43,263 bases of DNA, taken from positions 1 through 43,263 of IMG/VR virus record IMGVR_UViG_3300046517_000678; one strand, given 5' to 3'. The position numbers were made by a program, and so were the translations under genes. The notes below the pieces were generated by a model that saw nothing but the letters and a program-made list of their open reading frames with translations, was not told the DNA's origin and did no database searches. This DNA comes from a virus. The first letter of the stretch is position 1. Every line of letters begins with the position of its first letter. Of the stretch, positions 375 through 33,312 are shown piece after piece.

Positions 375-402
375 ATAGACGCCGTCGGTTGAGGTCTGGT
401 TG

Positions 403-3400
403 ATGCCGGGCGTCATCCCACTGGAGGACGCGCAGAAGCTGGTCACCGATCGTCTGCAGCAGCACGGCCAGGACGCGCTGCAGGCACTTCAGGATGCCAA
501 CCAGCCACCGCTGCAGAACACACAGCTCCCCGTCGAGGTCCCTGGTCCACAGATCGACCCGAACGAGATCATCCAGCGACTGCAGCAGCACGCTCAGGGT
601 GTGTTCGACGCGGCGCAGCAGGCGAATCAGCCACCCCTGCAGAACGTCCAGATCGACCCGAACGAGATCGTCAGTCGACTCCAGCAGCACGCGCAGGACA
701 CGCTCGCGAGCATGGGCCAGACCCTCGCGCCGGAGCCGCCGCAGCAGCAGCCTGATACCAGCGCACAGGCCGCCGTACAGACGCCACAGACCACGTCGCC
801 GAGCGCGAACGCTCAGACGCAGGTCGGACCCTCCGTAGCGCCTGGTGGGGACCTTCGTGACTACGCCAAGCAAGCCGCGCTGAAAGCGGGCATTGACCCG
901 GACATCTTTCTCAAGCAGATCGACCAGGAGTCGGGGTTCAATCCTGCGGCGAAGTCCGGCGCCGGCGCTATCGGGATCGCGCAGTTCATGCCCGCGACCG
1001 CACAGGGCATGGGCATCGACCCGACCGACCCGTACGCCGCACTGGACGCCGCGGCGCAGCTCGACGCGCAGAACCTGAAGAAGTACGGCGGCGACTACGC
1101 GAAAGCCCTGGCGGCCTACAACGCCGGCCCCGGCAATGTCGACCAGTACGGTGGCGTGCCGCCGTTCGAGGAGACCCAGCGCTACGTTCGGAACATCCTG
1201 GGCGGCGCGGCGAGCGCAGTCGGGACCGCAGTCGACACTGCTCGCGGAACGGTTGCCAACGCGGTCCTGCCGACGCTCAGCCAGTTCGGCGATCGCGAGC
1301 TCAACAGCGCCGAAGCCTATTCCGCGTGCGGACCCGCCGCCGCCGTGCGTTTTGCACAGATGTTCGGACGCAACCCGACCCTCAGGGAAGCGGTCGACCT
1401 GGCGAAGAATGTCGGCTGGACCGCGGACACGGGCATGGCCGGCTTGCAGTCCGAGAGCAAGCTGTTCGACGAAATGAATATTCCGCACCGCGTCATCGGC
1501 GCCGACTGGCAGGCGTTCGCCAGGGAAGCGCAGTCGGGCAACCCGGTTACGCTCAGCACGCCCGGTCACTACTTCACGGCGGATGCGTACGACCCGAAGA
1601 CGGGCGCGTTCCACGTCGGCTCGAGCGGCACCGATCTGCGCCAGGGCAAAGAGTGGATGACTCCGGCGGAGATGGAAGCGGTGATGGGACCGTTGCAGGG
1701 TGGTCTCGCCGCGGACAACCCCAACATTCCAGGCACCTCGCCGCTGTCGCAGGGCACTCGGCCAGCGCCGGCTCCCACCAACATCGTCGAGCAAGGTGCG
1801 AGTGTGCTCGCGGGCGGTCTCCAGCAGGTCGACAGCGCAGTCAAGAATGCGGCTCAGAATGTCGGCGGCGCGATCTCGTCCGCGGTCAACGATCCGAATG
1901 CGGCCGTGTCCAACGTCGGTCAAGCCATCGAGCAGAACCAGGCCAACCCGCCGTTGATGGGAGTACGCAACCAGATCGCGAACGCACCGGTCATCGGTGG
2001 CGCGCTGGGGATGCTGCGCGGACCTGAGTTGTTGAGCGACGAGGAGATTCTTCAGCAGCCGCAGGCCGATACCGCGCGGCAATTGCTCGAGCAGTTCCGT
2101 CAGGCGAGCGTCTCGAAGGGGGTCACGGTTCCGCCAGTCACCGACCAGGATGTCGCCGGCGCTGCTCGGACCATGCTGGAAGGTCAGGCGATCGCGATGA
2201 CGGGCCGCGGGATTGGGCGCGAGCCGTTGCCGGCTGAGCCTGGTGCAGTCACTCCACCGTCTGCTGCTCCAGCGGAGCCTGCGAGCACTCGGATGTACCA
2301 CGGCACCGGCGCGGCGTTCGACCGACCAGGCCAGTTCTCGGATGAGAGCCTGTACGGTCCGGGCTACTACGTGACCAGTGATCCGCGCGTGGCGGGTGGA
2401 AACGTAGCCAAAGGTGGCGAGCCGGTTGGGACGCTCAAACTGGCTGACGACATTACGCCGGTGACGCGTTCTCCGGGTGAGGTGCTTAGTCCGGGTTACG
2501 CACAGGAGCGCACCGGTGCGCCATTGACGGTTAGCGACGTGAGTCGCATTCATAGCGTCCTGGCATCGTCGCCCGAGATGAACCCCGACGTTGCCCGCTA
2601 CATCGGGGGCAGCGCTTCTCCGATCACATCGGAGCTTCTTGGGATGACTCCAGACGCAGCCGCGAGCCGTCTCCGCGCCACGCTCAGTGCATTGAAGATG
2701 CCGATGGAACAGCAAGACGCTGTAATTGCCCGAGCGTTGCCAATGGACGCGGGGCCGAACGTCCGCGCGGTGGACGTGCCGAAGAACCTGAAGCTGCTGG
2801 ACGTGGAAGCAACGATTTCTCCTGATGAAGTACGTGCGATAGCGGCAACGACGCCACCCAATAGCAAGCTCAACGCGATGATTGCCATCTGGGACAAAAG
2901 CGGCAAGATCAACGACCTGCCGGGTCAGTACGTCTACAGCGCCCTGAATGATGTGGGTGGCGGCAGGGTGGCTCCGGGCAACGTCGAGGCAAACCGAATC
3001 CTGCAAGCCGCTGGCTACGATGGGATCACATATCAGGGTGGCAGCCGCATCCCGATGACCGACACGAGCGGCGCGCCAATTGAGCATCAGGCGACGGTGG
3101 TGTTCCCCGAGTCGCTGGACAAGATCCGCAACGCCATCAGCGGTCGTCAGGGTGGCGCGGTGGACCTGCTGCTCGCTGCACGGCTCGGCGGCACGGTCGC
3201 GGGTGGCGCTGCCGGCTACGCGACCACTCCTGAAGACGCCAGCCCACAGGAACGGATTGCGCGCACCGCAGCAGGCGCGGGAGCTGGTCTGCTCGCAACC
3301 AATACTGCGGCAGGATTCGCCGGTGCTGGTCCGCTCGAGCGACAGGTGTTCGAGAATCTTCAGAGCCTGCGCGAGACGCGCTTTCCTCCAACCAGACCGT

Positions 3401-5223
3401 CGCAACCGCCAACCCGAGGACCAATCGCTCAGGCGGTCGACCTCACCAAGCAGTCCATGCTGTCGAATCCCGCGACGCACATCGCCAACGTCATCGGCAA
3501 CACCATCGAGCTCGCGCGTCAGCCCGTGGCGCTCACGCTGGGCGGTCGCGGAGCCGATGCGGTGGCAGGCGTCAGTGCGGTAGGTCGTGCGCTCCCAGAG
3601 GCTGTCGGCGCTGCAGTCTCAGCGTTGCGCGGCAGACAGCTCGGCACGCTGGAACGTCCCGGCGGCACCATCGGAGGTCCTGGTGTCGGCGGCGCGGTCA
3701 AGTCGTCGGTGTTCCGTGCGCTGTCCGCTTCGGACGCATTCACCCGCACGCTGGGCGAGTACCAGGGCATGGCCGCAGAGGCGAGCAGGCTGTTGCGCGA
3801 AGCTGGCATGTCGGCAAGCGATCCGCAGGCAGAGAGCTATCTGGCAAGGCACGCGACCGACCTCTATCGCGCAGGGACGCGCGCCGGCGCGCAGAGCGTC
3901 TTCGGCCGTGTTGCCAGCACCGAGCAGGGGACCGGCGTGCTCGACAACGTCTTCCGAGCGTATTCCAACGAAAAAGAAAAGTTGCTCGCCAGTCCGCGGC
4001 TCCGCGACCAGGCCGGGGGCGCGCTGATGGACTTCGGTATCCCGTTCAGCGGGGTCCCGGTGCAGATGCTCCAGATCGGGCTGAACCGTCTGCCGGTCGC
4101 TGCTCAGGCGACGGGTGCGATTCGCACGATACGGGCGCTGCGTGCGGGCAACATGGGTGCAGCGAAACGTGCCTTTGGCGAAACCACGTTGGAGACCATG
4201 ATCCAGCTCGCCATCGCCAAGAACGTGGGCGATGGAAACATCACCGGGCCGGACGATCCCGAGCATCCGAACTCGGTGCGGGTCGGTGGCAACTGGATGA
4301 GCATGAACGAGATGGGTGCGTACGCGCTGCCGATGCAGATCATGGCGTCGTGGGCCGACGGCTACGAGAAGGGCGGTCACGACGTACCACCCAGCACGCC
4401 AGGTGCGACCGACCTCGAGAAACTGACCAACTACTTCGGGCCACGGTTCGGCGCTGCGCTCAACGCGTCACTCAAACCGTTCCAGCAAGGGATTCCAGGC
4501 GAGAACCTCATCAGGTTCGTCTCGAACCTCGGGCAAGGGGGAGCGACCGGTGCGGGCCTCGGCCTGGCGCAGGACGCGGTCAGTCGCGTCACCGTCCCCG
4601 GCGCCGCGCGCTTTGTGGAGAACGCGACCGACCCGGTCGCGCGCGACATCAACCGCAAGGGAGTCTCGTCCTTGTGGGAAGGGACGATGGCAAACTGGCC
4701 AGGACTCGCGCAGCAACTCCCAGCAAAGATCGATCCCACCACGGGCGAGGTGCTGAACAAAGCGCGTTCGGGTATCGGCACGCTGGTCGGTGGGCAGCAG
4801 GACGTTGCGTCGCCGCTCACCGTCGAGGCTGACCGGCTCCACAAAGCAGGCTTCACGGATGTAGTTGCACCCAAGGCGTATCCTCAGGATGTCACGATCG
4901 GGGGAGCAAAAGTTACGTTGAGCCCAGACGAACAGCGAGCGGTGACGGAGATCACCGGCGCGGCGCTGGACAGGATCGCTCAGCGAATGGACGCGCCCGA
5001 ATACCAGAACGCGCCGGACCCCAGAAAGGCGCTCATGCTGAAGGCGATGATCAACAGTGTCGACGCGGGCCGCGTGGCCGCGGTGACGAAGGTGCTCGGC
5101 ACGGCTGAGCTGCGCTCGCGCGTGCTCGGTGGCCAACGGACCGCCGGCCAATTGAACCAGCAGGCCGCGGCCCCCGAGTTCATCACCAATCCGCTGAATG
5201 ATGCACTGGTAGGTGCTCGCTGA
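403..5223 (+). CDS. Polyvalent virion lysin/ejection protein: transglycosylase + C39-like peptidase + ART-like domain
   Basis: A 1606-residue multidomain protein, probably packaged in the virion and delivered into the host. Residues 1-110 hold three repeats of about 36 residues (core RLQQHAQ, then NQPPLQN). Residues 150-250 are an SLT-type lytic transglycosylase: catalytic Glu176 in QESGF, GAIGIAQFMP and AYNAGPGN. Residues 300-440 resemble a C39/papain-like peptidase, with Cys309 (SACGPAA), His389 (PGHYF) and a nearby Asp. From Met631 an ADP-ribosyltransferase-like domain of the polyvalent type begins (MYHGTG, GPGYYVTSD, then GYDGITYQGG and VVFPESLDKI near 870-910). The C-terminal half is a helical, Ala-rich region with the phage-typical LSNPATHIANVIGN. 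ATG 403 follows GAGGT at 7 bases; a TTG at 400 is also possible. It overlaps the next gene in TGATG. Enzyme activities are inferred from motifs. Confidence 0.85.
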   Translation: MPGVIPLEDAQKLVTDRLQQHGQDALQALQDANQPPLQNTQLPVEVPGPQIDPNEIIQRLQQHAQGVFDAAQQANQPPLQNVQIDPNEIVSRLQQHAQDTLASMGQTLAPEPPQQQPDTSAQAAVQTPQTTSPSANAQTQVGPSVAPGGDLRDYAKQAALKAGIDPDIFLKQIDQESGFNPAAKSGAGAIGIAQFMPATAQGMGIDPTDPYAALDAAAQLDAQNLKKYGGDYAKALAAYNAGPGNVDQYGGVPPFEETQRYVRNILGGAASAVGTAVDTARGTVANAVLPTLSQFGDRELNSAEAYSACGPAAAVRFAQMFGRNPTLREAVDLAKNVGWTADTGMAGLQSESKLFDEMNIPHRVIGADWQAFAREAQSGNPVTLSTPGHYFTADAYDPKTGAFHVGSSGTDLRQGKEWMTPAEMEAVMGPLQGGLAADNPNIPGTSPLSQGTRPAPAPTNIVEQGASVLAGGLQQVDSAVKNAAQNVGGAISSAVNDPNAAVSNVGQAIEQNQANPPLMGVRNQIANAPVIGGALGMLRGPELLSDEEILQQPQADTARQLLEQFRQASVSKGVTVPPVTDQDVAGAARTMLEGQAIAMTGRGIGREPLPAEPGAVTPPSAAPAEPASTRMYHGTGAAFDRPGQFSDESLYGPGYYVTSDPRVAGGNVAKGGEPVGTLKLADDITPVTRSPGEVLSPGYAQERTGAPLTVSDVSRIHSVLASSPEMNPDVARYIGGSASPITSELLGMTPDAAASRLRATLSALKMPMEQQDAVIARALPMDAGPNVRAVDVPKNLKLLDVEATISPDEVRAIAATTPPNSKLNAMIAIWDKSGKINDLPGQYVYSALNDVGGGRVAPGNVEANRILQAAGYDGITYQGGSRIPMTDTSGAPIEHQATVVFPESLDKIRNAISGRQGGAVDLLLAARLGGTVAGGAAGYATTPEDASPQERIARTAAGAGAGLLATNTAAGFAGAGPLERQVFENLQSLRETRFPPTRPSQPPTRGPIAQAVDLTKQSMLSNPATHIANVIGNTIELARQPVALTLGGRGADAVAGVSAVGRALPEAVGAAVSALRGRQLGTLERPGGTIGGPGVGGAVKSSVFRALSASDAFTRTLGEYQGMAAEASRLLREAGMSASDPQAESYLARHATDLYRAGTRAGAQSVFGRVASTEQGTGVLDNVFRAYSNEKEKLLASPRLRDQAGGALMDFGIPFSGVPVQMLQIGLNRLPVAAQATGAIRTIRALRAGNMGAAKRAFGETTLETMIQLAIAKNVGDGNITGPDDPEHPNSVRVGGNWMSMNEMGAYALPMQIMASWADGYEKGGHDVPPSTPGATDLEKLTNYFGPRFGAALNASLKPFQQGIPGENLIRFVSNLGQGGATGAGLGLAQDAVSRVTVPGAARFVENATDPVARDINRKGVSSLWEGTMANWPGLAQQLPAKIDPTTGEVLNKARSGIGTLVGGQQDVASPLTVEADRLHKAGFTDVVAPKAYPQDVTIGGAKVTLSPDEQRAVTEITGAALDRIAQRMDAPEYQNAPDPRKALMLKAMINSVDAGRVAAVTKVLGTAELRSRVLGGQRTAGQLNQQAAAPEFITNPLNDALVGAR

Positions 5224-15389: not shown

Positions 15390-17341
15390 GCCTGTACGCC
15401 AAGCGGTCTCCCTGGCCTTTTCACGTCCGGATTGCTGGGACCGGGTTTCTGATTGGCTCGCCGCAGGCTGGCCAGCCGGCGCTGGTGTCCACCAAGTCGC
15501 AGGACATCGGAGCGGTCGCGCCGCCCGATTACTCGTACGCCGGCGCGAATCCGACCAACGATCGGGAAGAACCGTTCCAGCAGCTCACGCTTGGGCTCGG
15601 CCTGGCGATTCAAGAGAAGTGGGACGACCAGCGGTATATGAGCGCCAACGCGGTCGACCTGTCGGTCTGGCCGTGGTTGCTGGGTCCGGAGATCGGAACC
15701 ACCACGCCGGCGAGCGTCGACGCGGTGCACGGCATCAACCGCTTCTTTGAGCTTGGGACGGATCTGTACGCGGCGAACGGTGCCAACGTCCTGAAGAAGG
15801 CGACCGGCGCCGACACCTGGTCGATTGTGAAGACGTTCTCCGCGCCGATCCTGGACGTCTGCGTTTTCTCATCCAACTTCGACGGGGTGCAGCGCGCGTT
15901 CTTCGCGCTCGGGGCGGGAGCGGTCGCTCAGTGGACGTCGAACGGCAGCGCGTACACCGCGATGACGACGTTCACCGCGCTCGCCTTCACCGTGATCGGC
16001 AAAGAGTTCTGGTGGGCCGACGATACCAACCGCCTGAGAAAACTGGACACCAATGCCGACCCGACCAACGAGGCCAACTACACCAGCCTGATTTTCCGCG
16101 CGGGCGATAAGTCGTCGCAGATCAACTCGCTCCTGGTCACCGCGGGCGGCACGCTGGTGGTCGCGAAGACCGACGGCATGTACACCCTGAACGCCGCCGG
16201 CGACGATCGCGAGGTCTTCCCATTTTTGCGCTACGCCGATGTGGGGACCAATGGGAGAACGTGGGGCACCTTCGAGAACGGGTTGTACGTGGCGTACGGC
16301 AACAGTCTGGGGAGGATTGATTCCGACCTGTCCTGGACCTCGGTCGGACCTGACGACCTGTCCTCGAACGTAGCCGGCATCTCTGGGCAGGTGACCGCGT
16401 TCGCAGGTGTAGAGACGATGTTCGCGTATTCCGCGCTGCTCGATCGGAACACCAACACCGGCTACCTGTGCAAGTTCGGCGCGTGGGTCGGGATGGGGGT
16501 CCGCGGACCGCGGCAGTCCACACTGGTCACTGCGCTCGGCTCGCAGGGGACGGGCGAGCCGGTCCACATCGACGCCTGGCATGGCAGCGTCAGCATTCCC
16601 TTCGTCGGGCGAGCGATTCAGCACCTGTTCGTCTCGCAGGTTGGCTCCGCAGTGGCCGGTCACACCAGGACATACATCGGGTTCTCTGACGGCAGCATTG
16701 GCTGGATGCTGAACCCCTGTACTCCCAATCCCGCGGGCTGCGTCGACTACAAGTACTTCGTCGGCGACGGGTGGGTCGACCTGCCATTGTGGCACGGTGG
16801 CTATCACGCTAGCCAGAAGAGCTTGCGTCACTTCAGCGTCACCGGGTCCAAACTTGACCCGAACAATTACGTCACCCTTGACTACCGTCTGGACCCGACG
16901 CCAGGGATGGCGTGGACCCCGTTCGGGAATGTCTTCGACTCGTCGGTGTACGAGCGGGCAATGTTCCCGATCAGCGCGGCGGCCACGTTGGTCGCGCTCC
17001 GTGTGCACTTGCACAACACCGACCACACCTCGACGCCACTGGTGTCAGGCGTCAGCCTGGGGCACGCGCTGAGGCCGCGGCGGGTGATGGAGTTCCAGTG
17101 CGACATCCTGTGTGCGGACGGGCTGGTGCGGCGTGATGGAGTGCCGGTCAGGATGGGGCGCAAACAGATCCAGAAATTGATCGAGGCCGCGGTCGACACT
17201 CCTGGCGCGGTGGCGGTGGTCCTGCCTGACGAGAGCTCGCAGAACCTGTCATTTACAGACTATTCGGTGATGCAATCATTCGACGAGATCGGTCGCCAGT
17301 GGCGAGGTTCTCTCAGAGTCAAAGCCGTGCAATGGACATAA
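15386..17341 (+). CDS. Putative tail nozzle/hub protein (beta-propeller-like)
   Basis: 651 residues, coupled to the upstream gene by ATGA. The long run of repeated beta motifs with short blades (FFELGTDLYAANGANVLKK; ISGQVTAFAGVETMFAYS; GRIDSDLSW) is typical of beta-propeller proteins such as nozzles or hubs of short-tailed phages. No peptidase or tape-measure features are seen. With no long tape-measure gene in the window, this supports a podovirus-like particle. Role inferred from fold pattern and gene order. Confidence 0.6.
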   Translation: MSLYAKRSPWPFHVRIAGTGFLIGSPQAGQPALVSTKSQDIGAVAPPDYSYAGANPTNDREEPFQQLTLGLGLAIQEKWDDQRYMSANAVDLSVWPWLLGPEIGTTTPASVDAVHGINRFFELGTDLYAANGANVLKKATGADTWSIVKTFSAPILDVCVFSSNFDGVQRAFFALGAGAVAQWTSNGSAYTAMTTFTALAFTVIGKEFWWADDTNRLRKLDTNADPTNEANYTSLIFRAGDKSSQINSLLVTAGGTLVVAKTDGMYTLNAAGDDREVFPFLRYADVGTNGRTWGTFENGLYVAYGNSLGRIDSDLSWTSVGPDDLSSNVAGISGQVTAFAGVETMFAYSALLDRNTNTGYLCKFGAWVGMGVRGPRQSTLVTALGSQGTGEPVHIDAWHGSVSIPFVGRAIQHLFVSQVGSAVAGHTRTYIGFSDGSIGWMLNPCTPNPAGCVDYKYFVGDGWVDLPLWHGGYHASQKSLRHFSVTGSKLDPNNYVTLDYRLDPTPGMAWTPFGNVFDSSVYERAMFPISAAATLVALRVHLHNTDHTSTPLVSGVSLGHALRPRRVMEFQCDILCADGLVRRDGVPVRMGRKQIQKLIEAAVDTPGAVAVVLPDESSQNLSFTDYSVMQSFDEIGRQWRGSLRVKAVQWT

Positions 17342-17353
17342 GGGAGTAGACGT

Positions 17354-18523
17354 ATGGCACGAATTGAGACTGATCCCAACTACAACGCGCCGACCTTCTC
17401 GAGAGCGACGGCGCCTACGGACATCTTCAAGAAGGAAGATGTCCAGAACGTCGCCGCGGCGTTCAGCACCCATACCCATGATGGCTCTGGCAAGGGACTC
17501 GCGGTCGCGTTCACCGGTGTGCCGCCCGGTTCCATTCCTGGAACGGCGCTGGCAGATGGCGCGGTCACGTCGGTCAAGATCGCCGACGGCACGATCGCGA
17601 CGGTGGATATTGCGAACGCTGCGGTTACCAATGCCAAGTTGGCCAGTGACACGGACCGTACGAACCTGCTGACCAACGGCGGGTTCGAGATCTGGCAGCG
17701 AGGAACTGGACCGTTCACAGGGAACGTGCATACAGCCGACCGTTGGGATATTGGTCTGGGTGGCTCCGACACCATGAGCGTGAGCGCCGATACCGTCAAT
17801 GTGGATAATGGGAGCCAACGGGCAGCGGCGTGTACGTATGTCCGCAATTCGGGGAACACGAGTTTTTACCAGACGCTCAAGACGTCGGACGAAAGTCTTG
17901 CGGGGCGCGTGGTGACGTTCTCGGTTCGAGTAAAGACCTCTACCGCAAATAGCGTGACCGCGATCATTGCGGGAGATGTCAGCGGCGCAACGAGTAGCGG
18001 TCTGCACAGTGGTGGCGGAACGTGGCAGACGCTGACGGCCTCGGCCACGGTCAATGTCAATGCGACGTCGGTGCTGCCCGTCGTGCAGTTCCAACAGTCC
18101 TGCACGGCCTATGTCGACAACGCGATGCTGGTGGTGGGGAGCCAGTACGCGGACTACGCCCCGCTGCACCCGGCCGACGACCTCGCACGATGCCTCAGGT
18201 ACTACGAAGTGGCTCAGCCCGCAGCTTTGGGCTATGCCGCGATGGGCTTCGCTTACGCCACTACGAATATCGTCGCCCCACTGGCGTACAAGACAGTGAA
18301 AGCAGTTGCTCCTACGGTGACGCTGAGCGCGGCTGCAGCCTGGCAGACCGCCGCAACGAATGGCGCAGGTCTCGCTGCAACAGTAGTGGCTCCCGGTCAG
18401 GTTTCCTCAACGACATGCAATATTGCTATGACCGTAGCGAGTGGGTTAGCTCTTGGTCAGGCGGCGCCCTTTGCAAGTGCGGCAGCCGGGACGGCGACTA
18501 TTTCAGTTGAGGCGAATCCGTAG
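17354..18523 (+). CDS. Tail fibre / receptor-binding protein
   Basis: 389 residues with a good ribosome site (AGGGAG upstream of ATG 17354). The N-terminal 110 residues contain fibre-like repeats (ALADGAVTSVKIADGTIAT; ITNAKLASD-like) typical of trimeric shafts. At about residue 115 begins LTNGGFEIWQRGTGPFT, TADRWDI and later YVDNAMLVVG, a carbohydrate-binding jelly-roll pattern. The C-terminal part with DLARCLRYYEV is common in phage fibre tips. It probably binds a host surface glycan. This is the strongest candidate for host range. Confidence 0.75.
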   Translation: MARIETDPNYNAPTFSRATAPTDIFKKEDVQNVAAAFSTHTHDGSGKGLAVAFTGVPPGSIPGTALADGAVTSVKIADGTIATVDIANAAVTNAKLASDTDRTNLLTNGGFEIWQRGTGPFTGNVHTADRWDIGLGGSDTMSVSADTVNVDNGSQRAAACTYVRNSGNTSFYQTLKTSDESLAGRVVTFSVRVKTSTANSVTAIIAGDVSGATSSGLHSGGGTWQTLTASATVNVNATSVLPVVQFQQSCTAYVDNAMLVVGSQYADYAPLHPADDLARCLRYYEVAQPAALGYAAMGFAYATTNIVAPLAYKTVKAVAPTVTLSAAAAWQTAATNGAGLAATVVAPGQVSSTTCNIAMTVASGLALGQAAPFASAAAGTATISVEANP

Positions 18524-22676: not shown

Positions 22677-22888
22677 CAGGCGGCCATGACCGAGCAGCGG
22701 CCGCCCGAGAGGGTCAGGCGTTCGGTGAGCTCGTCCAGACTGGCACGGACGTGGACGCTGCTGTCGTCGCTCAGGACCACGGTGGAACCCTTGGGGAACG
22801 TCGGGCAGATACGGACGATGTGGTTGATATTGATCAGAGTGGCGTCGCCGTCGCGGCCCGCGAGTTCAAGTCGGAGGAAGGTGCTCAT
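22676..22888 (-). CDS. FlbD-like small protein; first gene of the leftward operon
   Basis: 70 residues from ATG (complement 22886-22888). The layout (short beta strands, ININHIVRI, then STVVLSDDSSVHVRASLDEL) resembles the FlbD-like fold, a small domain found in many bacterial and phage proteins. A longer reading from 22918 is possible, but the ATG at 22888 sits 9 bases after a consensus -10, which favours it and implies a leaderless message. Confidence 0.6.
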   Translation of the reverse strand: MSTFLRLELAGRDGDATLININHIVRICPTFPKGSTVVLSDDSSVHVRASLDELTERLTLSGGRCSVMAA

Positions 22889-22897
22889 TGTGCCCAA

Positions 22898-22926
22898 AGT
22901 ATACTCACCATCGAACACCCATGCAA
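22898..22926 (-). promoter_or_regulatory. Consensus-like promoter of the leftward operon (leaderless)
   Basis: On the minus strand TTGCAT (-35, complement 22921-22926), a 17-base spacer and TATACT (-10, complement 22898-22903) are followed after 9 bases by ATG. Transcription should begin at or next to the start codon, so the mRNA would be leaderless. The region overlaps the repressor's own control region. Confidence 0.65.
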
Positions 22927-22928
22927 CA

Positions 22929-22946
22929 TGTATGGTACACTGTATG
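22929..22946 (+). promoter_or_regulatory. Putative repressor operator/promoter
   Basis: TGTATG occurs twice with 12-base spacing (22929-22934 and 22941-22946), around TACACT (22936-22941), a possible -10 for the rightward repressor gene. No good -35 is seen. The position between two divergent promoters and one and a half helical turns of repeat fits an operator that could silence the leftward promoter. Confidence 0.4.
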
Positions 22947-22971
22947 AAAAGGGAAAACGAGACTCAACCAG

Positions 22972-23262
22972 ATGGCAACCGCTGACTCGCAGGACGCGCA
23001 GAGTACACTGAGCGAACTCCTGACCTACACCGATTCAACTACCGTCGGACCTGAGAAAATGCCAGTCCTGACCCGGCTGCGGGACTTGCGGCTTCGTGCC
23101 GCCATGACTCAGGCTGAGTTGGCAGAGCGCTCGGGAGTGGCGCGCACCACCATCATCCGACTCGAGGCCGGCGACCCCGATGCGCTGCCGCCGACCGTCA
23201 AGAAACTGGCCAGAGCACTACACGTCAAACCGTTTGAGCTCTGGGAAGAAAACAAGGAATGA
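22972..23262 (+). CDS. XRE-family transcriptional repressor
   Basis: 96 residues. Residues about 36-90 are a Cro/C1-type helix-turn-helix: LRDLRLRAAMTQAELAERSG, then VARTTIIRLEAG and VKKLARALHVKPFELWEE. The N-terminal 30 residues are Ser/Thr rich. It is the only clear repressor in the window, placed between a divergent small-gene operon and the integrase, so it is the likely lysogeny regulator. No peptidase domain for SOS-driven cleavage is present. Confidence 0.8.
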   Translation: MATADSQDAQSTLSELLTYTDSTTVGPEKMPVLTRLRDLRLRAAMTQAELAERSGVARTTIIRLEAGDPDALPPTVKKLARALHVKPFELWEENKE

Positions 23263-23327: not shown

Positions 23328-23501
23328 ATGAAGAGTGTAGAAGACAAAGACCGCCCAGTTGTCGTGACCGTGACGGAGTACAAGCCAGAGAACCCTTCCC
23401 CAGAGTGGGAGGCTGAACGAGACGCTTCAGCGACGGTCCTGGTGCGGGTACTGATGCGAGCCCGTGAGCGCCTGATTCGCGAAGGCAGATTGCAGCCATG
23501 A
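23328..23501 (+). CDS. 57-residue protein coupled to the integrase (possible directionality factor)
   Basis: ATG 23328 with AAAGGAG 10 bases upstream; the stop overlaps the integrase start by ATGA. Acidic first half (VEDKDRPVVVTVTEYKPENP), then a helical basic half (ATVLVRVLMRARERLIREG). Small proteins next to large serine integrases include recombination directionality factors, which share no common sequence. The role is inferred only from context. Confidence 0.55.
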   Translation: MKSVEDKDRPVVVTVTEYKPENPSPEWEAERDASATVLVRVLMRARERLIREGRLQP

Positions 23502-25192
23502 CAGGTCTCATACGAGCTGCGTTCTACCAGCGGGTCTCGACCGACGAGCAATCGGACCGGGACACGATCCGCAGCCAGGACACGGCGCTGCGCAAGCACT
23601 TCGACGCTCACTTCCGCGACGACTCCACCGAGCCGTGGGTCTACGTCGGCACCTTCCGCGACGACGGCGTCAGCGGCACCGTGCCATTCGACCAGCGCCC
23701 CGACGGGCAGCGACTGCTGAACCTGATCAGGAGCGGCGAGGTCAACATGGTCTGCGTCACCCGCGGCGACCGGCTCGCCCGCGACCGCGGGGTGGCGCAA
23801 ACAATCGCCCGCGAGTTCTACGACCGCGACATCAGTATTGAGGCTACGAGCGAGCACATCGACCTCAAGACATCCACAGGCCAATTGATGTTCGCGATCA
23901 TGTGCGATTTCAGCCACTTCGAACGTGACCTTATCCGCGATCGCACCACCGCTGGCGCGATCCAACTCGTCAGCGAAGGGCGTTTCCTGTGCGGACCGGT
24001 GCCGTTCGGCTACGACGTGGTCAATGATCGCCTGACACCATCGGTGCGCCTGGTCGAGCAGCTCGGGTGTACCGAGGCCGAGCTGGTCATCCAGATCTAC
24101 GAGCGCATCGCCGGCGGGGAGAGCGCCATGAGCGTGGTCCGCTGGTTGCGAGCCTGCGGCGTGCCGTCTATCAGGCGCTACTTCAACAAGAAAAAAGAGC
24201 GCTACCACGAAGAAATTCGGCCGCACTGGCAGCACTCGCGCGTACGAGCCATGCTGCACAGTCCGATCTACTATGGCCAGCGCATCCTCAAGCACGCCGA
24301 GCCTGGCCCCGGTCGTTTGAACCGCGACATGCTCAGGATCGAGCAGTCGGTGCCGCCACTGGTCAGTCGTCAGGTCTGGGATCGCGCTGGCGAAGCGATG
24401 CGTGGCCATGTCTCGAACTTCAACACCGGGACCGATGACGGCTTCGTCTACCTGCTCACCGGGAAGATGGTCTGTGCTGAGTGCGGCTTCAAGATGATCG
24501 GCAACTACCGCAAGGGTGCCCCTGACCACCCCACGCCGCGACTGCTGTACGCCTGCTCGCGCGCGAAGGGACGGTTCCACGCTCAGCGCACGCCCGGCCA
24601 GCACTGCATCGCCGGCACCTACGAAGGCACCCAGATCGAGGAGATCGTTCTCCGTGCGATCGACGACCTGGTCGAGCACCCCGAGCAGACGCTCCAGGCG
24701 CTCGCCGTGCAGCAGGGGGAGCAGCATGGAGTTCTCGCTCAGCAGGAAGGTCATGCCAGGGCGCTGCAGCAACGCATTGCCAGTCTCGAACGCGGCCGCG
24801 CAGCGCTGGTCGAGAGCATGCAGTCAGGTGATCTGACGGCAGTCGAATTCAGGGCAGCGTCAGCAAAAAACACCGATCAGCAAGCCGAGGTGCGGCGCCA
24901 GATGGGGCTGCTGGAAGCCGAGGACGCGCTGGCTAAAGCACTGGACGCGCAACTCCGCGAGGCTCGCGAGATCGTGGCATTCCTGGGTGACGAGTGGCCG
25001 AAGGCACGCGCCGCCAACGACCGCCCAGAGTTACGAGCGATGATCCAGCCGCTGGTGCAGCAAGTGAGAATCAGCAAGGACCGCTCGATTCAGTACACGA
25101 TCCTGTTTGAACGGTCTACCGATTCGCACTGTTCGCACGATTACCTACGAATCGTTAGACCGCTGAGTATCGTCACTCGGCTGGTGGCTTGA
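23498..25192 (+). CDS. int: Large serine recombinase (phage integrase)
   Basis: 564 residues. The N-terminal resolvase domain has catalytic Ser14 in YQRVSTDEQS, the GVSGTVPFDQRP motif and TRGDRLARDR. A recombinase domain follows (GPVPFGYDV; then VVRWLRACGVPSIRRYF), a zinc-ribbon with CAECG (about 329-333) and later Cys pair, and a coiled-coil segment (about 400-480). This is the layout of site-specific phage integrases such as those of phiC31-like elements. It makes the phage temperate. Attachment sites could not be identified. Confidence 0.9.
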   Translation: MTGLIRAAFYQRVSTDEQSDRDTIRSQDTALRKHFDAHFRDDSTEPWVYVGTFRDDGVSGTVPFDQRPDGQRLLNLIRSGEVNMVCVTRGDRLARDRGVAQTIAREFYDRDISIEATSEHIDLKTSTGQLMFAIMCDFSHFERDLIRDRTTAGAIQLVSEGRFLCGPVPFGYDVVNDRLTPSVRLVEQLGCTEAELVIQIYERIAGGESAMSVVRWLRACGVPSIRRYFNKKKERYHEEIRPHWQHSRVRAMLHSPIYYGQRILKHAEPGPGRLNRDMLRIEQSVPPLVSRQVWDRAGEAMRGHVSNFNTGTDDGFVYLLTGKMVCAECGFKMIGNYRKGAPDHPTPRLLYACSRAKGRFHAQRTPGQHCIAGTYEGTQIEEIVLRAIDDLVEHPEQTLQALAVQQGEQHGVLAQQEGHARALQQRIASLERGRAALVESMQSGDLTAVEFRAASAKNTDQQAEVRRQMGLLEAEDALAKALDAQLREAREIVAFLGDEWPKARAANDRPELRAMIQPLVQQVRISKDRSIQYTILFERSTDSHCSHDYLRIVRPLSIVTRLVA

Positions 25193-25345
25193 GCGCCGGG
25201 CATGCCGCAAGCGGCTACCGATGCGGTCGCATTCAGTGCAGTAGACAGTGCGATACCACCGTTCTGAGCGGTAGTCGAACTTGAACCTGAATGCGTACCA
25301 GCCGAGGTGTCCCTTTCTACATCGGGTCGGCAGGGTACTAACCAA
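25145..25345 (-). CDS. Small zinc-binding protein, convergent with integrase
   Basis: 66 residues from TTG (complement 25343-25345), directly abutting the upstream stop (TAG then TTG). CRKGH at residues 9-13 and CTEC at 36-39 make a plausible zinc site, with Arg-rich residues around it. Its end overlaps the integrase end by 48 bases in opposite orientation. TTG is the only start codon; the call depends on this. Confidence 0.45.
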   Translation of the reverse strand: MVSTLPTRCRKGHLGWYAFRFKFDYRSERWYRTVYCTECDRIGSRLRHARRSSHQPSDDTQRSNDS

Positions 25346-25978
25346 CTAAGCGGCCTCCATGAAGCGCTGGTCTCTGACTTTGTCCAGCCAGCCGTTGAGC
25401 TTCGACCAGTTCACGTCCGGCCCATATTTCAGATAGGTGCCGTCGACGGTGTCGAACAACGAGACCATCATCGTGACCGTCCTGCGCTCGCTGTTCACCC
25501 GTCCCTGGTGCGTCGGCTTTCCTGCGGCCCGCGCCCAGCGAGCAGCTGCGTAGCCGCCAGCCTCCGAGAACTTCCAGTCATCGCGTCCGCCCACAAAGAG
25601 AACGTCGAAGCTCGCGGGGTCGGGCAATGCCGTCTCGAAGAATCCATCCTGGGCAACGTAAGCCGCGCGGTATCCCAGTTGGCGAATCGTGGGCAGATAC
25701 GGCACTGACAACTCGAGCGTGGCGCCAGCATCGCCGACCACGTCGGGAGCTACGGCGAACAGGCAGTTCTGACGATAGCGGCGCAGCCCAGCTAGCCACT
25801 CGAGCCAATCGCCGTCGTTCCACTCATCAGGTTTGGCGAAGCGACCGTTATCGCAGGCGAACTTCCAGAACTGGAATGGTCGGGCGTCATTGCCCATGCC
25901 TGGCTGGAACATCAACCCGAGTTCAGGTCGTGGATTGGCGAGCAGCGTCTGGGTCATGACGCCACTCAGGTAGAGCAC
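25346..25978 (-). CDS. DpdA/TGT-like protein (putative 7-deazaguanine DNA transglycosylase)
   Basis: 210 residues from GTG 25978 (complement), or 203 from ATG 25957. It keeps a chain of motifs typical of phage DpdA-like tRNA-guanine-transglycosylase relatives: APDVVGDAGATL, YVAQDGFF, FVGGRDDWKFSEAGG, HQGRVNSERR (about 157-166) and DTVDGTYLKYGPD. Proteins of this family exchange guanine in DNA for 7-deazaguanine derivatives that block host restriction. No precursor-synthesis genes (folE, queC/D/E) are seen in the window, so the base would have to come from the host. It is shorter than typical tRNA enzymes. Confidence 0.65.
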   Translation of the reverse strand: MLYLSGVMTQTLLANPRPELGLMFQPGMGNDARPFQFWKFACDNGRFAKPDEWNDGDWLEWLAGLRRYRQNCLFAVAPDVVGDAGATLELSVPYLPTIRQLGYRAAYVAQDGFFETALPDPASFDVLFVGGRDDWKFSEAGGYAAARWARAAGKPTHQGRVNSERRTVTMMVSLFDTVDGTYLKYGPDVNWSKLNGWLDKVRDQRFMEAA

Positions 25979-25980
25979 GG

Positions 25981-26172
25981 TCAGCAGGCAGCGTAGTACT
26001 GCTGCCCGCAGTGCCCTGTGGAGATCACCTGGACTTCAGCCATCCATTCCCGCGTCCACGCCTGGCGTTCCTCGTAGGTGTGCCAGGACCAGGTGCCGTC
26101 CCATGCCGAAGGTGGATAGGGAGTGGCGGTCTGAGCGAACAGCAGCAGTGCGAGTGCTCGGACGAGAGTCAC
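25981..26172 (-). CDS. Small exported protein
   Basis: 63 residues from GTG (complement 26170-26172), which overlaps the previous stop as GTGA. N-terminal residues 1-15 are a short hydrophobic signal (MTLVRALALLLFAQT). The rest is rich in Trp, Glu and aromatic residues with two cysteines near the end. Secreted or membrane attached; unknown function. Confidence 0.5.
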   Translation of the reverse strand: MTLVRALALLLFAQTATPYPPSAWDGTWSWHTYEERQAWTREWMAEVQVISTGHCGQQYYAAC

Positions 26173-26330
26173 GACTGGGGTCGCTGACTCTCTCTCGCGC
26201 GGCGTAGCAAACGCAACTTCACGAACGCTCGCACCGCGGCCGCGATCGCCGCCGGGTCGGGCTTTTCAGTCACCTCGACCACTCGGTATGGCTGGTCTGT
26301 CGACCGCTCGGTGGCCGTTGGCTGTTCCAC
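26169..26330 (-). CDS. Small hypothetical protein, first in the leftward set
   Basis: 53 residues from GTG (complement 26328-26330), overlapping the next gene as GTGA. An N-terminal Thr/Glu-rich part is followed by a helix AIAAAVRAFVKLRLLRRARE. Its start lies 43 bases after the conserved leader that also precedes the rightward gene at 27147, which supports this start. No Shine-Dalgarno is visible. The frame stays open upstream to about 26490 without an ATG. Confidence 0.5.
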   Translation of the reverse strand: MEQPTATERSTDQPYRVVEVTEKPDPAAIAAAVRAFVKLRLLRRARESQRPQS

Positions 26331-26383
26331 GTAGCCCAGTCTGCCGGCATTTCGGAAACTCGGTGCGCCAATCGGTACGACAC
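26331..26383 (-). promoter_or_regulatory. Conserved leader element, copy 1 (leftward operon)
   Basis: Reading leftward: GTGTCGTACC (26383-26374), TGGCGCAC (26370-26363) and ATGCCGGCA (26350-26342), ending 11 bases before GTG 26330. The same three blocks, in the same order and spacing, occur before ATG 27147. In one frame both copies encode related peptides (VSYRLAH...MPADW here, VSYQVAH...MPARW there), so it may be a leader peptide rather than only a DNA site. Confidence 0.6.
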
Positions 26384-26535
26384 TTTTTGGACCGATGTAC
26401 TGCTCATGTCCGATAGCTGACCGACGCCGGAACGGATGTTCTATACTCTCTGACGCTACGCATGACGTACCGTTGTCGTAAGGGTTTGTTCAGAACGTGT
26501 AACTAACGACGGTCCCCTGGGAGGTTGGATGGTCG

Positions 26536-27045
26536 GTGGAACAGCAAGCGAAAAACAGTCAGCCGTCGCTGCCGGGTGTGCCGTTGAGCATTGTGCCTGG
26601 GCAGGCCATCGCGTATCTGGAAGCGGTCAGGCGTTACTACCAGCCAGGGGTCACGCGGTTGCCGCGGAACGCGGACATCGCTGCGGCACACATGCCGCGA
26701 CTGAACTCGAGGACGTGGGATCGACGCAAAGCCGATCTGCGAGATAAAAAATGGGCAGGCCGAGATTGGATCGAGGTCTGGCCACCACCGCGTGACTGGC
26801 ACCCGTCCTGGGAGCCGCTGCTTTTGGAGTCGCTTGCACCTGTTACGCCTGCGCCGGGCGACCAGGAAAACGGGGTGGTTCACCTGACGTACGACGAGGC
26901 ATACGACCGCACCGGCAAGCTCATTGAGCGGCGTCTGATTCGGACGCTCGGCCACCTGGGAGCGGTTGCCGCGCTCGTTCTGTACAGTCTGTGTCTCCGC
27001 GGACACTTCATCCACGTAACGGGAATGCACGTCAGACTGTCGTAG
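26536..27045 (+). CDS. Hypothetical early protein
   Basis: 169 residues from GTG 26536. Residues about 20-80 are charged and helical (IAYLEAVRRYYQPGVTRLPR, TWDRRKADLRDKKWAGRDW) with a Trp/Pro-rich segment afterwards; the end has a hydrophobic helix (LGAVAALVLYSLCL). A GGGAGG is 13 bases upstream, closer to an out-of-frame ATG at 26529, so the start is uncertain. First gene of the rightward early block; may be regulatory. Confidence 0.5.
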   Translation: MEQQAKNSQPSLPGVPLSIVPGQAIAYLEAVRRYYQPGVTRLPRNADIAAAHMPRLNSRTWDRRKADLRDKKWAGRDWIEVWPPPRDWHPSWEPLLLESLAPVTPAPGDQENGVVHLTYDEAYDRTGKLIERRLIRTLGHLGAVAALVLYSLCLRGHFIHVTGMHVRLS

Positions 27046-27081
27046 TGTGACGTGCTTCTGACGTGCTGTTGGTGCACGTCA
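27027..27081. promoter_or_regulatory. Cluster of four GCACGTCA octamers
   Basis: GCACGTCA at 27027-27034 and 27074-27081 and its complement TGACGTGC at 27048-27055 and 27059-27066 lie within 55 bases, overlapping a -10-like CATAAA (27080-27085). The central pair (27059-27081) forms an inverted repeat with an 8-bp arm. The layout is typical of an operator controlling the operon from 27095/27147 onward. Confidence 0.55.
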
Positions 27082-27094
27082 TAAATAGCGGCAT

Positions 27095-27146
27095 GTGTCG
27101 TACCAAGTGGCGCACGCGAATTTGCTGATGCCGGCACGCTGGTGTC
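27095..27146 (+). promoter_or_regulatory. Conserved leader element, copy 2 (rightward early operon)
   Basis: Contains GTGTCGTACC (27095-27104), TGGCGCAC (27108-27115) and ATGCCGGCA (27128-27136), with the same spacing as in copy 1, ending 10 bases before ATG 27147. The CATAAA at 27080-27085 is 9 bases before the GTG at 27095, so a leaderless peptide from 27095 is possible. Confidence 0.6.
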
Positions 27147-27404
27147 ATGCACGACGGATACGCCAACGCCCGCCCGGTCCGTGTGCCGGCGCTGGCGCGT
27201 ACTGACCTCGGCCCGGCAGGTTGGGACACTCTTCACGAGGTCGCTGACCTGCGTGGTCGACCGCCGCGATTGCAAGTCCTGGCGTTGCTGCGGTGGGCGC
27301 TCTGGCGATCGCTGCAGGGCGACGACACCGAGCTGACGCGGGCGCAACTCGACGAGCTCCTCGGCTCACTCGAACTTTCTCAATCAGCCGAAGCCGCGGC
27401 CTAG
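27147..27404 (+). CDS. Small hypothetical early protein
   Basis: 85 residues from ATG 27147, with no clear Shine-Dalgarno but downstream of the conserved leader. Helical middle (LQVLALLRWALWRSLQGDD) and C-terminal helix (AQLDELLGSLELSQSAEAA). Function unknown. Three bases separate its stop from the next ATG. Confidence 0.55.
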   Translation: MHDGYANARPVRVPALARTDLGPAGWDTLHEVADLRGRPPRLQVLALLRWALWRSLQGDDTELTRAQLDELLGSLELSQSAEAAA

Positions 27405-27407
27405 TCC

Positions 27408-27728
27408 ATGACGCCATCAACACGTGGCGCTAGCTTGCCCTCCATCAGCCAGGCCGAGATGAGCCTGCTGCAGCCGAGCTACTACCGCTACCTGTTCACG
27501 CACGGGCTGGAAGACACAGCCGAACGGTTAGAGCTGGCGACCGTGATGTGGGCTGCTGGTGGCGCGTCGACGCTCAGGCGCTCGGCGTCGATCGGCAGCA
27601 CGGCCCCGACGATGCGAGAGCTAGCGGACCTGCTCCTGTTTGCGGATCTGGTGCGCGAGTCGGAGAACGGCTCGGCCTACTGGTCGACTCCCGAGGACGT
27701 CGCTGACGAGATGGGCGTCACGGACTGA
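27408..27728 (+). CDS. Hypothetical early protein
   Basis: 106 residues from ATG 27408. Helical, Ala/Leu rich (EDTAERLELATVMWAAGG; TMRELADLLLFADLV), ending in an acidic segment. The stop overlaps the next start as TGATG. No family recognised. Confidence 0.55.
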   Translation: MTPSTRGASLPSISQAEMSLLQPSYYRYLFTHGLEDTAERLELATVMWAAGGASTLRRSASIGSTAPTMRELADLLLFADLVRESENGSAYWSTPEDVADEMGVTD

Positions 27729-27940
27729 TGGCCCCGAAGTGTTGGTGCGGAGTGCGCAACCCGTACTTCGCGCCGCTGTACGGGCGTTGCGGCGGTTACG
27801 GGCACATCAGCTGTATCTGCGGTGGCGACTTCTGCGTGTGCCACAACCACGGCGACGTTGAGTGTGACGGATGCGTTGACTGCGAGTTCGGTGATGAGGT
27901 CGACGAGGACGTCGCGGACGAGATGGCGGTGCAGGACTGA
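27728..27940 (+). CDS. Very Cys-rich small phage protein
   Basis: 70 residues with about ten cysteines, most in CxC or CxxC groups: CWCG at 5-8, CICGG, CVCHNHGD and CDGCVDC. The last 20 residues are acidic (FGDEVDEDVADEMAVQD). The CxCGGDFCVCHNHG core recurs in small proteins of many phages. It likely binds one or two zinc ions. It is coupled to the next gene by TGATG. Confidence 0.65.
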   Translation: MAPKCWCGVRNPYFAPLYGRCGGYGHISCICGGDFCVCHNHGDVECDGCVDCEFGDEVDEDVADEMAVQD

Positions 27941-28335
27941 TGGCCACGCTGACTGCGCTGGCCATGCTGGTCACCGTCGCGAGCGTGGATGGTGCAGGTG
28001 TCGCTCCAGCAGCCGCGGTAGCCATGCCAGCCGTCGAGGACGCACCAGACGAGGCACCCGAGCTCGAGGTCGCTGTAGAGCCTGTACAGCGCGACTGGGT
28101 GGACCGGGTGATGGACTGTCTGGCGTGGGCCGAGTCGCGCAACGTGCCCACCGCGGTCAATCCGCGCTCAGGCGCTTCTGGACTCTTTCAGTTCTTGCTG
28201 TCGACCTGGATGACGACGCCGCAGGGTCGCGCTGGGTACTCGCGGTTCGACCCCGTCGCGAGCAGAGAAGCTACTCGCTGGATGATCGGTCAGAACCGCG
28301 GTCGGGAGTGGTCGACCTGGTGGATGTGTGCATGA
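27940..28335 (+). CDS. Secreted Rpf-like lytic transglycosylase
   Basis: 131 residues. An N-terminal hydrophobic signal (about 1-30) and acidic linker lead to a short lysozyme-like domain: catalytic Glu65 in CLAWAESRN, then SGASGLFQFLLSTW and ATRWMIGQNRGREWSTWW. This is the fold of resuscitation-promoting-factor-type muralytic enzymes. Its place in an early operon, away from late lysis genes, is unusual; a role in wall remodelling or superinfection control is possible. Confidence 0.65.
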   Translation: MATLTALAMLVTVASVDGAGVAPAAAVAMPAVEDAPDEAPELEVAVEPVQRDWVDRVMDCLAWAESRNVPTAVNPRSGASGLFQFLLSTWMTTPQGRAGYSRFDPVASREATRWMIGQNRGREWSTWWMCA

Positions 28336-33102: not shown

Positions 33103-33312
33103 ATGTCGAGATTTCTGCTGGTCGAGCTCGAGCCCGATCTGGCCGAGCATCAGACCACTCGCGAGTCGGTCTTTCGGGCCATCAGCATGACCAGCGGCGT
33201 ACGCCAGACCATCGACCTGAGCGTCATCTCGCAGACCACACTGGACCACATACTTCTCGCCGAGCCGGTCGCGGTGCAGCGTGGGCGCAGACGCCCAACG
33301 GACGCTGCCTGA
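33103..33312 (+). CDS. Small hypothetical protein upstream of terminase
   Basis: 69 residues from ATG 33103. N-terminal helix with acidic face (LLVELEPDLAEHQTTRES), basic C-terminus (RGRRRPTDAA). Its stop is five bases before the terminase small-subunit candidate start. Function unknown. Confidence 0.5.
   Translation: MSRFLLVELEPDLAEHQTTRESVFRAISMTSGVRQTIDLSVISQTTLDHILLAEPVAVQRGRRRPTDAA

Follow-up and report, generated by a model that had tools for sequence, protein, structure and literature searches.

Two operons diverging from a 0.8-kb region of this phage are each preceded by a copy of one conserved element, and the pair appears to form two matched promoter-operators, P-left and P-right, in the SOS-linked control region for lysis and lysogeny of a temperate phage, with the gene between the copies acting as described below; we give this reading a probability of about 0.5. 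The region adds a new case to a kind of phage switch that is already familiar, and by the tests made here it belongs to none of the known systems. The window is the whole stretch of DNA that was analyzed, 43,263 nucleotides (IMG/VR record IMGVR_UViG_3300046517_000678), and it was compared with three relatives, G001, G002 and G003, giving a set of four related phage contigs. The features of the window considered here are:

22972-23262, plus strand: Cro/CI-type HTH_3 protein of 96 amino acids (HTH_3 match at E 4.5e-13; no peptidase domain found), 5' of the serine integrase; candidate lysogeny repressor
23498-25192, plus strand: large serine integrase, within a cassette exchanged relative to G001
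26169-26330, minus strand: first leftward gene, 53 amino acids; an unrelated small gene stands in its place in G001
26336-26383, minus strand: left element copy, TGKCGYAC sites at 26375 and 26363, then TGCCGGCAGACTGG; 3' end 5 nt from GTG 26330; kept in G001 and G002, rearranged in G003
26430-26441: LexA-type box GAACGGATGTTC, abutting a -10-like TATACT (26442-26447) 5' of gene 26536; in the same place in all four phages
26451-26481, plus strand: middle-promoter array, TGACGCTA at 26451, TGACGTAC at 26463 and TGTCGTAA at 26474, just 3' of the middle -10; counterparts at 16827, 16837 and 16849 in G003 and at 33312 and 33323 in G002
26536-27045, plus strand: gene 26536, an orphan of 169 amino acids between the two elements, with a putative HTH-like middle part and a putative hydrophobic C-terminal stretch
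27038-27115, plus strand: right-promoter array, TGDCGYRC-type sites at 27038, 27048, 27059, 27070, 27096 and 27108, with a degenerate slot near 27083; G003 counterpart at 17480-17527
27095-27142, plus strand: right element copy, sites at 27096 and 27108, then TGCCGGCACGCTGG; 3' end 4 nt from ATG 27147; kept in G001, G002 and G003
27147-27404, plus strand: gene 27147, an orphan of 85 amino acids that opens the rightward (early lytic) operon; among full-length proteins, the one found to be best conserved with the divergent G002 (82%)

A preliminary description of this DNA had noted three blocks in the same order and spacing just before GTG 26330 (minus) and ATG 27147 (plus), and exact location of all three confirmed the observation. 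GTGTCGTACC lies at 26374-26383 (minus) and 27095-27104 (plus), with no other exact copy in the window; TGGCGCAC lies at 26363-26370 (minus) and 27108-27115 (plus), and ATGCCGGCA at 26342-26350 (minus) and 27128-27136 (plus). The start-to-start spacing from TGGCGCAC to TGCCGGCA is 21 bp in both copies, and TGCCGGCA ends 11 nt short of the start codon in the left copy (GTGTCGTACCGATTGGCGCACCGAGTTTCCGAAATGCCGGCAGACTGGGCTAC-GTG(26330), minus strand) and 10 nt short of it in the right (GTGTCGTACCAAGTGGCGCACGCGAATTTGCTGATGCCGGCACGCTGGTGTC-ATG(27147), plus strand). The pair is the top-scoring inverted self-match of the window (about 48 nt, 80%), tied with one other. An equal or better score arose in 4 of 20 first-order Markov randomizations of the window, which is borderline against chance, and the self-match was therefore left out as proof. 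The match within the window is unconvincing by itself; it is conservation in the relatives that indicates that the element is real.

The near relative G001 came from an exact-pattern scan of viral contigs, and the more divergent G002 and G003 were recovered with the 27147 protein as query. Profile searches of the contigs gave no relative beyond these three, neither of two scans through 84,980 genomes of bacteria and archaea, with the 27147 and 26536 proteins, gave a prophage copy, and no close isolated relative of the phage group was found. Four extra viral contigs carrying the 33-base full pattern, from a later exact-pattern scan, have no other part of the region and were set aside as chance matches; further matches to the inner half of the pattern in viral contigs were unrelated.

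When the motif set was searched for in the related phages, as the preliminary description had proposed, its blocks proved to be conserved at both sites, with the left copy of G003 rearranged. The consensus in the relatives is TGGCGYAC-N13-TGCCGGCAnnCT, 10-11 nt 5' of the start codons. The pattern TGGCGYAC-N14-18-CCGGCA has two matches, one per strand and solely at these two sites, in the window, G001 and G002, and one match, the right copy, in G003, whose left copy has a spacing 7 bp shorter and a second TGCCGGCA; a reversed control pattern had none in any of the four. With a weight matrix the true copies scored 42-46 bits, shuffled genomes at most 19 and any other place in the real genomes at most 14, the informative part being the absence of other sites, as training the matrix on the true sites inflates what those sites score. 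Between TGCCGGCA and the start codon, each of the three distinct rightward copies has 10 nt, and each leftward copy in the window, G001 and G002 has 11 nt. Both copies point outward, and each keeps a fixed distance to the start codon that follows it, which on the left belongs to a leftward gene and on the right to the gene that opens the rightward replication/packaging operon.

The element contains a smaller repeating unit. In each window copy, TGTCGTAC and TGGCGCAC are variants of a single 8-mer that lie on the same strand at a distance of 12 bp, and this 8-mer, TGDCGYRC, occurs in same-strand arrays with 10-13 bp spacing at the left, middle and right promoters, pointing along transcription at all three. 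The 0.8 kb between the window start codons holds 11 such sites, where the rest of the genome would predict 0.9 (p about 4e-9, an optimistic value, as are all p-values here, because the pattern was first spotted by eye in the same sequences); the counts are 8 against 1.2 expected in G002 and 11 against 1.6 in G003. Same-strand pairs 11-13 bp apart all fall inside the control region in each genome (4/4, 3/3, 1/1 and 2/2). Because the pattern had been recognized in these sequences, site models built from one phage were also tried on a different one, which is the fairer test. With the model trained on G003, the four top-ranking tandem pairs of the window fell at the middle promoter, the right element, the left element and the array 5' of the right element, and the model trained on the window placed the three best G003 triples at the right, middle and left promoters. 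The G002 arrays are weak, with just the middle-promoter pair ranking first, and with one of two models. The full element is found at two places only and the tandem pairs are confined to 26336-27115.

Neither GTG 26330 nor ATG 27147 is preceded by a Shine-Dalgarno sequence; a clear one is also missing from several other genes of this phage, and gene 26536 has one (GGAGGT). A CANRCT block resembling a -10 lies 6-7 nt 5' of the start codon, and the TGGCGYAC block is centred near -35. Scans of the region gave no consensus sigma70 promoter and no intrinsic terminator. From the missing Shine-Dalgarno, the fixed distance to the start codon and the positions of the two blocks, P-left and P-right are probably leaderless and dependent on a bound protein. 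The failure to find a sigma70 promoter and the other genes without a clear Shine-Dalgarno sequence count against the overall reading.

The middle promoter differs in carrying a GAACN4GTTC box, the single copy in the window, where 0.36 would be expected by chance. In G003 the equivalent copy is likewise the only one; G001 has two copies and G002 four, each including the equivalent one. The middle array starts about 10 nt downstream of the box. A putative LexA box thus appears to overlap the promoter of a control gene, as in SOS-controlled lysis-lysogeny regions, an integrase and a repressor-type gene are both present, and the gene between the elements looks DNA-damage-inducible. The two element copies, the tandem arrays and the LexA-type box at the middle -10 are kept in the four phages, less clearly in G002.

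The products of genes 26536 and 27147 matched no family in Pfam or PHROG at a threshold as loose as E 10, and no convincing match to a solved structure was obtained. By our reading of the family sequences, the 26536 proteins have a helix-turn-helix-like stretch, DIAaaHxPRLxxRTWDRRK, and in three relatives, close to the C end, a segment of marginal hydrophobicity (19-residue Kyte-Doolittle mean 1.64-1.68); the structure model is unusable (pLDDT 44), and DNA binding by this product is a guess. The rightward operon continues after 27147 with small genes, an SLT-domain gene, a DNA methylase, an endonuclease-like gene, a primase/helicase and the terminase. A 45-nt repeat (84% identical, 27692-27736 and 27904-27948) gives genes 27408-27728 and 27728-27940 the same C-terminal tail, EDVADEM-x-V-x-D, and a similar tail is kept on the first gene in G001.

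On the other side, nucleotide homology between the window and G001 ends at 23339 and restarts at 26327; positions 23340-26326, with the integrase and leftward genes, are wholly different, while both flanks are 93-94% identical. The integrase and leftward genes were exchanged as a cassette with its edges at two start codons; on the right the edge is the left element, at the start codon of that element. The protein of the small gene ahead of the integrase (23329-23500) shows weak similarity to that of the first leftward gene (49% over 41 amino acids, E 0.004). The leftward operon also holds a DpdA-like (tRNA-guanine transglycosylase-like) gene at 25346-25978, whose matches are only to actinobacteriophage proteins, a hint of an actinobacterial host; no tRNAs were found as a further clue.

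In the mechanism that we propose, transcription would begin about at the start codons, and a phage protein would bind the repeats head-to-tail and control both outward promoters jointly. The host SOS response would open the middle promoter, P-mid, whereupon the 26536 product would be made. This product would act on P-left and P-right, either directly as an activator or by lifting repression, and would limit its own promoter through the P-mid array. P-left would drive the integrase-linked small gene, which may encode an excision factor, and the lytic genes would be driven by P-right, so that excision and lytic growth would be switched together. The SOS-opened 26536 product is the most likely actor on P-left, P-right and its own promoter; we infer the identity of the binder, and the sign of its action as activation or repression, from sequence. 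More specific, and doubtful, is the proposal that an orphan, SOS-controlled, possibly membrane-linked family of regulators binds tandem asymmetric 8-bp sites and activates a pair of homologous leaderless promoters together, one of them serving a swappable integrase/excision cassette and the other the lytic operon. The same promoter-operator on both sides would explain how an exchangeable integrase/excision cassette stays wired to lytic induction. The region offers a compact, testable switch run by proteins without known families, and two orphan proteins are named as candidate regulators.

The lambda immunity region (OL-cI-OR) shares the layout proposed here, a regulator-like gene with matching operators on either side, each serving one of two divergent early operons. 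Lambda operators, however, are dyads to which dimers bind, and CI cleaves itself, whereas the sites in this phage are asymmetric and stand in tandem, and a LexA-type box accompanies the gene between them. Phage GIL01, which uses host LexA directly, resembles this phage in having a LexA-type box at a control-region promoter; in GIL01, however, LexA and gp7 repress the lysogenic promoter P1, whereas here the box is at the middle promoter only (PMC4551915). The L5-type repressors of Cluster A mycobacteriophages (L5, TipsytheTRex) have asymmetric, dispersed sites oriented with transcription, an orientation shared by the sites here, and are of similar length with an N-terminal HTH (PMC9283540). The L5 sites, however, are of 13 bp and scattered at more than 20 places, whereas the 8-bp sites here stand in tandem within one 0.8-kb region. 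No sequence relation to the Cluster A system was found, and its mark, 13-bp asymmetric sites spread through the genome in short intergenic gaps, differs from the pattern here, with the full element at two places and the tandem pairs in one region.

Phage 186 is alike in two respects: its Apl protein recognizes direct repeats with a spacing of 10-11 bp, located at early promoters and att (PMC7498355), comparable to the same-strand repeats that follow each other at roughly one helical turn at the early promoters here (weak in G002), and a LexA-controlled phage gene, Tum, feeds its switch (PMC3121763). It is unlike in its tyrosine integrase, its face-to-face pR and pL and its further Apl sites at attP; here the promoters face away from each other, the integrase belongs to the large serine recombinases, no TGDCGYRC array was found in its vicinity, and the proteins have no match among known families. 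The 27147 product may nevertheless bind the arrays as 186 Apl and P2 Cox bind tandem repeats, and repress the early promoters once lytic growth has begun, which we regard as possible and unlikely. Its size and position are fitting, it is strongly conserved (82-87% in the relatives), and cooperative tandem binding would account for the degenerate single sites. However, Apl and Cox partner tyrosine integrases, and for 27147 no HTH or known fold was detected, with a poor model (pLDDT 57) and no significant match in a fold search. As to the small winged-HTH family of Apl, Cox and Xis, the 27147 and 26536 products gave no family match, and the structure models of both are poor.

We hold it equally improbable that the HTH_3 protein of gene 22972 is a lysogeny repressor acting on the shared elements to shut P-left and P-right, with the 26536 product as an SOS-induced antirepressor, as in the Gifsy, 186 (Tum) and N15 prophages. 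The gene is conserved in all four phages, and its product, lacking a peptidase domain, would need an antirepressor; LexA-controlled antirepressors acting on non-cleavable repressors are known (PMC3121763). Cro/CI-type proteins, however, normally bind dyads, whereas the sites here are asymmetric tandem repeats, and the promoter region of 22972 itself has neither a TGDCGYRC array nor TGCCGGCA. It has instead (22882-22972) a conserved TGTA-N3-TACA dyad, TGCAACMTGTATGNTACACT in the relatives, which is likely the gene's own operator.

Very improbable is a mobile or invertible segment that carries gene 26536 and has the inverted copies as its ends. The copies do surround one gene, with a serine recombinase nearby and the G001 homology breaking at the left copy; but orientation and place are identical in four phages, the left and right copies retain distinct sequences, no transposase or invertase lies inside, and the break is the edge of the exchanged integrase cassette, which excludes gene 26536.

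Least probable is a leader peptide encoded by the element. The preliminary description had left the choice between such a peptide and a regulator binding site on both sides of 26536-27045; the binding site is supported, as the element is conserved, at a fixed distance from the start codons and part of the tandem-site set at three promoters, and the peptide is not. The frame VSY-x-x-AH...MPA-x-W is present as it was written, VSYRLAHRVSEMPADW (minus) and VSYQVAHANLLMPARW (plus), and is readable as a single frame in both window copies. In the relatives, however, it is stopped or changed: TGA closes it in the G003 left copy (VAYRLAYP*), MPA becomes VPA in the rightward copies of G002 and G003, and GCGCAC/GCGTAC within GCGYAC swaps His for Tyr at conserved DNA positions. 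No common start codon was found among eight element copies, and hence no conserved short ORF before the operon of the kind that marks a leader-peptide attenuator. Conservation thus tracks the DNA blocks rather than codons, and since the integrase and leftward genes are swapped at the left element's edge, the element is kept in G001 while the downstream leftward protein is unrelated.

Two other readings of the DNA were discarded, a sigma54 promoter for its wrong GG-GC spacing, read from the sequence, and a structured RNA for want of an Rfam match in the window. Elsewhere in the window, a 1607-amino-acid protein (400-5223) with an endolysin/transglycosylase domain near its N end is probably a virion-associated lysin.
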